Assembly: GCA_012719075.1 (NCBI GenBank)
Contig: JAAYBB010000063.1
Location: 1-49,863, forward strand
DNA length: 49,863 nt
Direction: 5' to 3'
From: Clostridiales bacterium
GTDB taxonomy: Bacteria > Bacillota > Clostridia > Oscillospirales > Feifaniaceae
The translations under genes and the position numbers were made by a program. Below the pieces are notes generated by a model that saw only the letters and a program-made list of their open reading frames with translations, was not told the DNA's origin and did no database searches. Position 1 is the stretch's first letter; each line of letters starts with the position of its first letter. Shown one piece after another: positions 2,788-20,900 of this stretch.

Positions 2788-4617
<1,830 letters not shown>

Positions 4618-4777
4618 GTAATGGATCAGTCCTCCAGTGTCGCCTCGGAACGGGGCGGCCGAGGTCGAGAATATGGATCGGGAACAGGGACCGAAATTCC
4701 CATCCGGCAGCAGAACTCTGCGGCCTGAAATGAAATTTGCCGCGCGGGGATGGGCCGCGGGGCAGGGCCGTGCGCCG

Positions 4778-4951
4778 CTGTGGTTTGTGCTGCGGTCGCC
4801 CGCAGTTTTGCACAGGGCTGTCGACGACGGCAACGCCGGAGGGCACCCGCCGATGGCTCGATGAACCCTCTCCTCGTCAGCCGGAGGAACCCGGCTCAGG
4901 CGCTCTTGGTGCGGGGGCTTTGCTGGGGAATGAGGCCTTGTCTTTTGCGCT
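4778..4951 (-). promoter_or_regulatory. glmS ribozyme (glucosamine-6-phosphate-activated self-cleaving riboswitch)
   Basis: On the minus strand the glmS leader contains the conserved core in order: A|GCGC at the expected cleavage site (between 4951 and 4950), GCGCC closing the next helix, GACGAGGAGAGGGTTCATCG, then a short loop and ATCGGCGGGTGCCCTCCGG. These match the catalytic core of known glmS ribozymes. A P4-like nested stem (CTGTG / CTGCGG with their complements) ends near 4778. Position directly upstream of glmS supports the call. Cleavage would destabilise the mRNA when glucosamine-6-phosphate is plentiful. The 3' boundary is approximate. Confidence 0.9.
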
Positions 4952-4983
4952 TCTCCGGCCGGCACCACCTCCAGTATCTATTC

Positions 4984-14651: not shown

Positions 14652-14939
14652 TCAGATCAGCTGCGTAAAGGTGTCCACGACCGGAGGCACTGCGCAGAGG
14701 GCGGCCAGCCTGGGCACAATGGCGGTGAAGTGGGCGCTGGCCGAGTGGGCGTCGAGGTGGGCCTGGCTCTCCCAGGCCTCCAGCACGACGAGGACGTCTT
14801 CGTCTTTGGTCGACTGCGCAAGGTCGTAAGCGGCACAGCCGGCCTCCCTGCGGGTCAGCTCGACAAGCTCCCTGACCATCTCAACGGCCTCTTGCACATG
14901 GCCGGGCTTGAGCGTAAAGGTGGCGACAACACGGATCAT
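14652..14939 (-). CDS. Antibiotic biosynthesis monooxygenase (ABM) domain protein
   Basis: 95 aa single-domain dimeric alpha-beta barrel of the ABM/YgiN type, with the typical opening VVATFTLKPGH and central YDLAQS...FVVLEAW-like segment (here VLVVLEAWES). Members include quinol monooxygenases and proteins with no known reaction; the substrate cannot be told. ATG 14939 is preferred since the AGGAG abuts the alternative GTG at 14951. It is 45 bases downstream of the gatB stop on the same strand. Confidence 0.8.
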   Translation of the reverse strand: MIRVVATFTLKPGHVQEAVEMVRELVELTRREAGCAAYDLAQSTKDEDVLVVLEAWESQAHLDAHSASAHFTAIVPRLAALCAVPPVVDTFTQLI

Positions 14940-14996
14940 GGTTGCAAACACTCCTGACAGTTTAATTTTTATCCTTCCACCCGCAAATTGCGGCGC

Positions 14997-16427
14997 TCAG
15001 CGGTCGAGCGCCTCTTTGAGCAGGCGGCTGAACAGCTGTGGGTTGCCCTTGCCGGCGCTGCGCTTCATGCACTGGCCGACCAGAAAGCCCAGCACGTTGG
15101 TCTTGCCCTGCCGGTACTCGGCCACGGGGCCGGCGTTTGCGGCCAGCACCTCGGTTGCGATGCCGGCCAGCAGCGCCTCGTCGTTGATCTGGGCCAGCCC
15201 CAGGCGCGCGACCGCCTCGGCCGGCGTCTCGCCGGTCTCGAGCAGCTGCTCGAGCACCGCCTTGGCGGCGGTGGAGGAGAGGGTGCCGTCCTGGGTGAGC
15301 CGGATCAGCTCGAGCAGGTGCTCGGGCGCAAGGCCCAGCTGCTCCACCGCCACGCCGCGCTCGTTGCAGAGGCGCGAGAGGTCGCCCAGCAGCCAGTTGC
15401 AGATGGGCTTGGAGAGCGCGGCGTCCAGCGCGGCGCAGCGCTCAAAGTAGGCGGCGCGGGAGAGGTCGCCGGCCAGCACGCCGCTCTCGTAGGGGGAGAG
15501 GCCGTAGACCCTGAGGTAGCGCTCGTACTTTTGCAGCGGCAGCTCGGGCAGGCTGCGGCGCAGCGCCTCGATGTCGGCCTCCTCGAGCCGGATCAGCGCG
15601 AGGTCGGGGTCGGCGAAGCAGCGGTAGTCGGCCTCGCCTTTGGCCCGCATGGCAAAGTTCTCGCCCAGGGCCTCGTCCCAGCGCCGGGTCTCGACCTGCA
15701 CAGCCTCACCGGCGTTCAGGATGCCGATCTGGCGGGCGACCTCGTACTCGATGGCCTTGGTCACGCCCGAAAAGGTGCTGATGTTCTTCATCTCCACGCG
15801 GGTGCCGAGGCCGGTCGAGCCCTGCGGCCGGACCGAGACGTTGACGTCGCAGCGGATGTTGCCCTCCTGCATGCGGCAGTTGCAGATGCCCAGACACTCC
15901 AAGATGGCCTTGAGGGCCTCTGCGTAGGCCTTGGTCTCCTCGGCCGAGTACAGGTCGGGTTCGCTGACGATCTCGATCAGCGGCACGCCGCTGCGGTTGA
16001 GGTCGATCAGCGTGCCCGAAAAGCGGTCGTCGTGCAGCAGCTTGCCGGTGTCCTCCTCGATGTGGATCTGGTGGATGCGCACCCGCTTGAGCCGCTCGCC
16101 GACGTAGAAGGAGACCTCGCCGTCCACGCAGAGCGGCGGGGAGACCTGGCTGATCTGGTAGCCCTTGGGCAGGTCGGCGTAAAAGTAGTTCTTGCGGTCG
16201 TGTCCCGACAGCGCATTGACCCTGCAGTTGCAGGCCAGCCCCATCTTGAGCGCATACTCCACCGCCCGGCGGTTGAGGACGGGCAGCGCGCCGGGCAGGC
16301 CGGCGCAGACCGGGCAGCACTGGGTGTTGACCATGGCGCCGTAGGTGGTGCTGCAGTTGCAGTAGACCTTGGTGGCGGTGCTCAGCTCGGCGTGCATCTC
16401 GATGCCGATCACGGGTTCGTAGTTCAC
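14997..16427 (-). CDS. gatB: Aspartyl/glutamyl-tRNA(Asn/Gln) amidotransferase subunit B
   Basis: 476 aa. GatB is the kinase/transamidase subunit that activates Glu or Asp on mischarged tRNA with ATP. The ATP/Mg-site residues in GIEMHAEL (usually GxEVHVEL), the CPVCAGLPG zinc segment, DRKNYFY, and EGNIRCDVNVSVRP are present, and the C-terminal YqeY-like tail is complete. One local change: the usual EEAHDYRYF reads GEADYRCF, a one-residue deletion removing His. The start is GTG, immediately after the gatA stop, with GAGGGGG upstream. Its partner GatA is degenerate, so the source of ammonia is an open question. Confidence 0.93.
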   Translation of the reverse strand: MNYEPVIGIEMHAELSTATKVYCNCSTTYGAMVNTQCCPVCAGLPGALPVLNRRAVEYALKMGLACNCRVNALSGHDRKNYFYADLPKGYQISQVSPPLCVDGEVSFYVGERLKRVRIHQIHIEEDTGKLLHDDRFSGTLIDLNRSGVPLIEIVSEPDLYSAEETKAYAEALKAILECLGICNCRMQEGNIRCDVNVSVRPQGSTGLGTRVEMKNISTFSGVTKAIEYEVARQIGILNAGEAVQVETRRWDEALGENFAMRAKGEADYRCFADPDLALIRLEEADIEALRRSLPELPLQKYERYLRVYGLSPYESGVLAGDLSRAAYFERCAALDAALSKPICNWLLGDLSRLCNERGVAVEQLGLAPEHLLELIRLTQDGTLSSTAAKAVLEQLLETGETPAEAVARLGLAQINDEALLAGIATEVLAANAGPVAEYRQGKTNVLGFLVGQCMKRSAGKGNPQLFSRLLKEALDR

Positions 16428-17750
16428 TTAGGACCCCCTCCTTTCCAGCGATTCAAGGGCCAGCGCGGCGTTCAGCAGCAGCGCCTCGGAGCCCCGCTTG
16501 CCGATCAGCTGCAGCGCGCCGCCGCCAAAGGGCAGCACCAGCGCCGGCAGGCCGGCCAGGTTGGCCAGCACGGTGCAGAGCCCCTCGCGGTCGAGGGCCT
16601 CCCCGTAGCCGGCGGCCGGGCGCAGCGGCGTCAGCAGCAGATCGCAGTCCGCGAGCAGCTCGTCGCAGGCGGCCACAAGCGCTGCGCGCAGGCGCACGGC
16701 CCGATCGTAGTACTCCGCCCGGTAGGCGGTGAGCAGCGCATAGGTGCCCAGCAGGGTGCGGCGGCGCAGCTCGGGGCCAAAGCCCTCGGCGCGGCTCTTG
16801 GCAATGAGGTCGCCGATGCCCTCGGCCTCCTGCGCGCGGTGGCCGTACTTGATGCCATCAAGCCGCGCGAGGTTGGAGGAGGCCTCGGCCGAGGCGAGGA
16901 TGTAGTGCGTCCGCGGGCCGAGGGCCGCAAGCGGCAGCGCCGCCTCGCGGCAGGTGGCCCCCAGAACCACAAGGGCCTCTGCGGCAGAGAGCGCGGCGGC
17001 CGACGCGGGGCCGGCGGCCTCCTGCAGCTCCCGCACCAGCGCGATGTGCAGGTGGCCGACCTCGCCGTCCAGGCTGGGGGCCACGGGGCTGTGCGGCGCT
17101 TGGCACGTGGAGGCGTCCAGCGGGTCCGGCCCGGCCAGCAGGTCAAACAGCAGCGCGCAGTCCATGACGCTGCGGGCCACCGGCGCCGCCTGGTCCAGCG
17201 AGGAGGCGGCCGAGACCAGGCCGTAGCGCGAGATGGCGCCCCAGGTCGGCTTGAGGGAGACCAGGCCGGCGTCGCCGGCGCGGCGGCGCAGCGCGCCGTC
17301 GTGGTCGCTGCCCAGCGCGAGCGGCAGCGCGCCCTGCGCCACGGCCAGCACCGCGCCGCAGGGGCCGTCCGGCTCGAGGCCGAACTCGCCGACGGCCAGT
17401 TTGCCCAGCAGGGGCAGGCCGCCCGCCTCGAGGCGGGTGACGGCGGTGGCGCTGTAGGGCGGGATAAAGCCCTTCAGCATGGCGGAGCCGCAGGCGGTCA
17501 GCACGCCCTCGGTGCAAAAGCTGTCCTCGACGCCGACCGGGACCCCGGCCAGCGGGGGGAGGGCCTCGCCCGCCCCGCGGCGGGCGTCGACGCGCCCTGC
17601 GGTCCGCAGGGCCGCCTCGGCCGAGGTGGTCACAAAGCCGCCAGCCTCGTCGGCATGGCGCAGGCAGGCCTCGGCCAGCCCGGCCGCCGTGGTCTGCCCC
17701 GCGGCCAGCAGGCCGGCAAGTTCAACAGCTGTCTTTTTCTCAATTGTCAT
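16428..17750 (-). CDS. gatA: GatA-like amidase subunit lacking the catalytic triad
   Basis: 440 aa, about 40-50 shorter than usual GatA. By family and operon position it should be the glutaminase of GatCAB, using a Lys-cisSer-Ser triad. Here the Lys of GVPVAIKDN is Glu75 (GVPVGVEDS). The Gly/Ser loop with the cis-Ser (GGSSGGS) and about 25 flanking residues are missing between GEFGLEPDG and CGAVLAVAQG. The Ser nucleophile segment TGGSIR reads HDGALR, with Ala153 at the Ser position. Flanking structural motifs (SAMLKGFIPPYSATAV, LKPTWGAISRYGLVSAASSL) are well conserved, and the frame is open throughout. It therefore looks like a retained pseudoenzyme, not a decaying pseudogene. The start at ATG 17750 fits AGGGGG at eight bases. 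Confidence 0.9.
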   Translation of the reverse strand: MTIEKKTAVELAGLLAAGQTTAAGLAEACLRHADEAGGFVTTSAEAALRTAGRVDARRGAGEALPPLAGVPVGVEDSFCTEGVLTACGSAMLKGFIPPYSATAVTRLEAGGLPLLGKLAVGEFGLEPDGPCGAVLAVAQGALPLALGSDHDGALRRRAGDAGLVSLKPTWGAISRYGLVSAASSLDQAAPVARSVMDCALLFDLLAGPDPLDASTCQAPHSPVAPSLDGEVGHLHIALVRELQEAAGPASAAALSAAEALVVLGATCREAALPLAALGPRTHYILASAEASSNLARLDGIKYGHRAQEAEGIGDLIAKSRAEGFGPELRRRTLLGTYALLTAYRAEYYDRAVRLRAALVAACDELLADCDLLLTPLRPAAGYGEALDREGLCTVLANLAGLPALVLPFGGGALQLIGKRGSEALLLNAALALESLERRGS

Positions 17751-17762
17751 CGGCACAACCCC

Positions 17763-20900
<3,138 letters not shown>

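Follow-up and report, generated by a model that had tools for sequence, protein, structure and literature searches.

A GatA without its catalytic triad in a Clostridiales ligA-gatCAB operon, and the glutaminase-free amidotransferase it is predicted to serve

Introduction

GatCAB is taught as a glutamine-dependent amidotransferase with GatA as its glutaminase. The ligA-gatCAB operon described here, found in a 49,863-nucleotide stretch of DNA (contig JAAYBB010000063.1 of assembly GCA_012719075.1, hereafter the window) from a Clostridiales bacterium of the family Feifaniaceae, order Oscillospirales, encodes a GatA in which no residue of the amidase triad is left. The locus raises the question of whether such a complex can still amidate tRNA-bound glutamate, and from where it would draw its ammonia. 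A first-pass annotation made from the letters of the window had proposed a GatA retained as a scaffold without glutaminase activity in an ammonia-dependent complex, or else a regulatory paralogue or a complex with a new task, and had named no known system of this kind. In the open-access literature, we found no description of a GatA that lacks the triad naturally.

Results

The window genome is a draft of 1.88 Mb in 92 contigs (92.8% complete), and its gatA is known from this one genome of its genus. On the minus strand of the window, ligA, gatC, gatA and gatB lie consecutively with every frame open (Table 1), and gene order is the same in the six other members of the family that have GatA (G001-G006). 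Directly 3' of gatB is a small gene with an antibiotic-biosynthesis-monooxygenase domain (14652-14951, minus strand).

Table 1. Features of the gatCAB region, in window positions
Feature	Position	Strand	Basis
ligA, first gene of the operon	18022..20133	-	gene order
gatC, full-length but weak match	17763..18038	-	profile match
triad-less gatA (Glu77 and Ala155, cis-Ser loop lost), 442 aa, 442 open codons	16428..17756	-	profile matches, alignment, model
Glu77 codon replacing the catalytic Lys	17526..17528	-	alignment; codon counted from ORF start 17756
Site of the net 21-residue cis-Ser loop deletion; PDGPC (129-133) remains between EFGLE and GAVLAVAQ	17358..17372	-	alignment
Ala155 codon replacing the Ser nucleophile	17292..17294	-	alignment
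gatB, kinase/transamidase subunit, 84/87 conserved columns	14997..16427	-	profile match, tree, alignment

The gatA product matched the Pfam Amidase model at 1e-65 and the NCBIfam GatA model at 1e-84, scoring 284 bits with the latter, below its cut-off of 481. Alignment of window GatA with the GatA sequences of six family members and 24 further genomes confirmed the annotated loss of the triad: the catalytic Lys and the Ser nucleophile are substituted and the GGSSGGS loop is absent. The two substitutions had been correctly recognised as Glu75 and Ala153, a numbering counted from Met3 that becomes Glu77 and Ala155 from the ORF start. The loop deletion also stands, its size being a net 21 residues (63 bases) relative to the nearest relatives rather than about 25, and the open frame runs for 442 codons instead of the 440 first given. 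The triad is intact in five of the six family relatives. Having none of the three catalytic residues, window GatA is, as judged from its sequence, unable to hydrolyse glutamine. It keeps 59 of the 88 columns conserved in intact relatives, and the losses cluster, affecting 20 of 40 conserved columns in the active-site segment as compared to 9 of 48 elsewhere (Fisher p 0.003).

The observation comes from one draft genome, as would be the case for an assembly or binning artefact; however, three separated changes lie within an open frame, the operon order matches that of six relatives, and GatA and GatB both place in the family, so that we hold an artefact to be extremely improbable. A mosaic origin of gatA was also rejected, as sliding identity was nearest to its own family almost throughout; the region of the deleted loop was about equally close to the short clades.

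Modelling of window GatA with AlphaFold2 gave a confident full-length fold (pLDDT 92.1, pTM 0.92), and the solved structures nearest to the model were GatA chains of GatCAB complexes. Codon periodicity of gatA is normal, with a GC3 of 0.92, and the gene is not a visible pseudogene. In the trees, the window GatA branch is very long (1.59, vs about 0.3 on the path to the sister genomes), while the GatB branch is of ordinary length (0.48). Thus, constraint on GatA is weaker than on its operon partner GatB; a long GatA branch is expected under relaxed constraint too.

Window GatB falls within its family clade with 100/100 support and retains 84 of 87 conserved columns, in agreement with its description as intact; the difference from GatA in conserved-column loss is marked (p 3e-7). 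The His of HDYRYF, the loss of which had been listed as a GatB defect, does not belong to a conserved column (Kineothrix has Gln there), and its absence is therefore meaningless. GatC, likewise described as intact, is indeed present and full-length, but its match is weak (37.5 bits, below its NCBIfam cut-off). With gatC, gatA and gatB present together, and the conserved columns kept in GatB, the GatCAB gene set is complete.

The synthetase complement indicates what the complex may be needed for. The window assembly contains no second GatA or other amidase, and no GlnRS exceeded its cut-off. GltX is the only Glu/Gln-class synthetase. AsnRS is present and adjoins the ammonia-dependent AsnA, the asnA gene (L251:1254-2264) lying directly upstream of asnS (L032) on contig 56. 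Thus, of the genes to which the first-pass annotation had pointed, asnS was found whereas glnS and a second gatA were not. AsnRS allows direct charging of tRNA(Asn). As GlnRS is absent, no route to Gln-tRNA(Gln) other than GatCAB is visible. The synthetase set is the same in the six family relatives that have GatCAB, none of which has GlnRS. In another member of the family, G007 (L033, L040), GlnRS is present and GatA absent; its GlnRS and GltX genes are adjacent on contig 29.

The fast evolution of window GatA and the incompleteness of the genome make decay the main rival explanation: a glnS gained in the unassembled part would have rendered GatCAB dispensable, with gatA the first to erode. 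The long GatA branch, the occurrence of GlnRS without GatA in the same family and an assembly only 93% complete, from which glnS could be missing, are in keeping with such a course. On the other hand, GlnRS occurs in neither the window genome nor the six relatives with GatCAB; GatB is nearly lossless although it would be equally useless; the gatA frame is intact and its model well folded (pLDDT 92); and the losses in GatA gather in the active site in place of being evenly spread. On balance, we consider decay unlikely.

The window GatCAB is probably a working Glu-tRNA(Gln) amidotransferase without a glutaminase, in which GatA serves as a scaffold and free ammonia is drawn from solution, its activity being a prediction. 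With a single GltX and no GlnRS, GluRS would mischarge tRNA(Gln) with Glu. GatB, given its intact conserved columns, would then activate this Glu with ATP and amidate it. The folded GatA would hold GatB and GatC together and probably shape the inner end of the ammonia tunnel. Ammonia from solution might enter by way of the active-site pocket, which is emptied and has an acidic residue at the former Lys position; conversion of the pocket into an ammonium entry is speculative. The scaffold reading of the first-pass annotation is thus the best one, given the absence of a second gatA and of glnS and the presence of asnS, with the ammonia dependence following by inference. Neither a regulatory paralogue nor a new task finds support, as this is the sole GatCAB of a genome that apparently needs one.

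The window GatA turned out not to be alone in the order. A single-sequence scan of reference genomes uncovered a triad-less GatA in a Clostridia genome from yak colon (G008, L005), where an aspS-gatC-gatA-gatB operon has an asparaginase-family gene after it. When 394 genomes of the order were surveyed, and 55 of them, mostly picked for odd matches, were searched with a GatA model, 23 other genomes with triad-less GatA came to light, a count that is a lower bound since one query was used and only selected matches were followed up. Fifteen of the 23 resemble the yak-colon GatA, with ORFs of 389-435 aa except in G128, where a stop interrupts the frame and leaves 347 aa beyond it. This stop is one in-frame TAG near codon 53 (L106:5617-6813), at which the close relative G269 is open, and represents either a sequencing error or recent damage. 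The remaining eight GatAs (L117-L123, L126) are shorter or more divergent (302-387 aa); several of their genomes are without GlnRS or AsnRS, and most are without asparaginase.

In this parallel clade, every readable Lys site carries a replacement, which is Asp or Glu in all cases but one, the cis-Ser loop is lost, and the nucleophile position varies (Ala, Ser, Thr, His and others). In the GatB tree, the triad-less aspS-gatCAB genomes group in one clade (100/100) that splits into two sub-clades and excludes the window. Holding the GatB rows of all triad-less genomes in a single clade was rejected (AU p 3.8e-50), and with it a shared origin of the window GatA and the aspS-gatCAB type; with the GatA tree alone, a single triad-less clade gave p 0.10. 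Since the GatB tree separates the two, the triad has been lost at least twice, and the system is not a one-off: a triad-less clade exists in the same order and was reached independently. In the same family as the window, G003 (L025:1886-3358) has Gly in place of the nucleophile Ser (SDTGGGLR) with the Lys and cis-Ser kept, in a genome without GlnRS; on sequence grounds it is possibly a third loss of GatA activity.

Window and parallel clade have several pocket replacements in common (Lys to Asp/Glu, DEF to GEF, Gly to Asp/Glu), which may be a convergent adaptation or the usual fate of an emptied pocket. Such likeness between two independent lineages is also what one would expect had the GatA site been rebuilt into another amide-hydrolysing active site still serving GatB. 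This we regard as very unlikely, because residues at the nucleophile position differ freely among the GatAs of the parallel clade, the pocket loop has been lost, and no newly conserved Ser, Cys or Thr can be seen.

The synthetases of the parallel clade suggest a different substrate. In its first sub-clade (16 genomes including G008), AsnRS exceeded the cut-off in none, G008 alone having a sub-threshold match, as compared to 28 of 32 canonical-GatA genomes with AsnRS; GlnRS was found in 15 of the 16. With no standard AsnRS in these genomes, their GatCAB should make Asn-tRNA; the complexes appear to be devoted to amidating Asp-tRNA(Asn), in partnership with the AspRS encoded in the operon. Their GatB keeps 80 of 87 conserved columns, and dN/dS of their gatA was 0.102 and 0.096 in two pairs, showing purifying selection. 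This selection together with the lack of AsnRS makes it likely that the triad-less GatA clade is functional. Glutaminase activity of a non-discriminating AspRS is reported in a paper cited by PMC8406222.

An asparaginase-family protein (PF00710) was detected in 15 of the 16 genomes of the first sub-clade vs 6 of 36 canonical-GatA genomes, these genomes being related and not independent, and was mostly absent from the second sub-clade. In 10 of the 16 its gene adjoins the operon, either following gatB (in one case at a distance of about 1.8 kb) or immediately ahead of aspS. Divergent genes beside the operon are those at L103, L104, L105, L106, L109, L112, L115, L116, L127 and L190; in L191-L194 the gene is unlinked to it. 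Fourteen of the 15 proteins are divergent. Of the Thr-Thr-Asp-Lys catalytic set of the family, the first Thr and the second Thr-Asp are invariant in the 15 sequences and the usual Lys position is not conserved; a conserved His appears in YHSxT. The predicted fold is that of an asparaginase, GatD structures are among the Foldseek matches, and the GatD models are hit at 1e-19 to 1e-23, far under the GatD cut-off. From its gene neighbourhood and co-occurrence, this protein is the leading candidate for the ammonia source of the aspS-gatCAB complexes and a possible bacterial counterpart of archaeal GatD; a simpler possible role is the disposal of free asparagine in cells unable to charge it. One further genome, G236 (L195:4677-5654), has a divergent asparaginase with a canonical GatA and no AsnRS, and is perhaps an intermediate state.

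The asparaginase of the parallel clade, present in 15 of 16 genomes and beside the operon in 10, gives some grounds for supposing that in the window lineage also an unrecognised separate protein docks on GatA or GatB and supplies ammonia from glutamine. The window genome, however, has no PF00710 protein, and no glutaminase-like gene adjoins its operon; we therefore rate the chance of such a partner as slim. As for a glutaminase encoded nearby, the sole glutamine amidotransferase domain of the window belongs to a GlmS-like protein (2788-4968).

Discussion

Here we describe a GatA that has lost its active site in an operon that has kept the rest of the complex, and a second, independent set of triad-less GatAs, which apparently makes this a wider and undescribed pattern in the order. 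With dead GatA active sites in both lineages, the complexes probably take their ammonia from elsewhere. We tentatively propose, at somewhat short of even chances, that on two or more occasions bacteria of the order dispensed with the GatA glutaminase. In one old clade an asparaginase-family protein would have taken its place as a GatD-like supplier of ammonia, forming with GatC, GatB and a catalytically dead GatA scaffold an Asp-tRNA(Asn) amidotransferase; the complex of the window lineage would use free ammonia alone. If true, cells that rely on GatCAB for an essential aminoacyl-tRNA show glutamine-fed ammonia channelling to be dispensable in nature, catalysis by GatA can be separated from its scaffold role, and bacteria have a natural parallel to the archaeal GatD solution. 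For annotation, the presence of gatA should not be equated with glutamine-dependent amidation.

Compared with the canonical GatCAB of S. aureus (2df4), A. aeolicus (3h0l) and P. aeruginosa (4wj3), the window complex likewise has three subunits and the conserved columns of GatB, its GatA fold is alike (TM-score 0.91-0.93 over the query), and a like role is suggested by its synthetase set, but no member of the Lys-cisSer-Ser triad remains, which should leave it without glutaminase. The archaeal GatDE (1zq1, 2d6f) resembles the parallel clade in that ammonia possibly comes from an asparaginase-fold protein. The parallel clade differs in having GatB and not GatE, with GatA still present, and in an asparaginase that scores far below the GatD cut-off and does not conserve the catalytic Lys position; the window genome is without any such protein. 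AsnA, which is present in the window genome, works with free ammonia in a reaction for which a parallel enzyme takes glutamine, although it is unrelated to GatCAB and not tRNA-dependent. Yeast mitochondrial GatFAB with glutaminase impaired by a truncated GatF still transamidates with NH4Cl (PMC4027206); there, GatF was truncated in the laboratory, whereas the triad of the window GatA was lost in nature.
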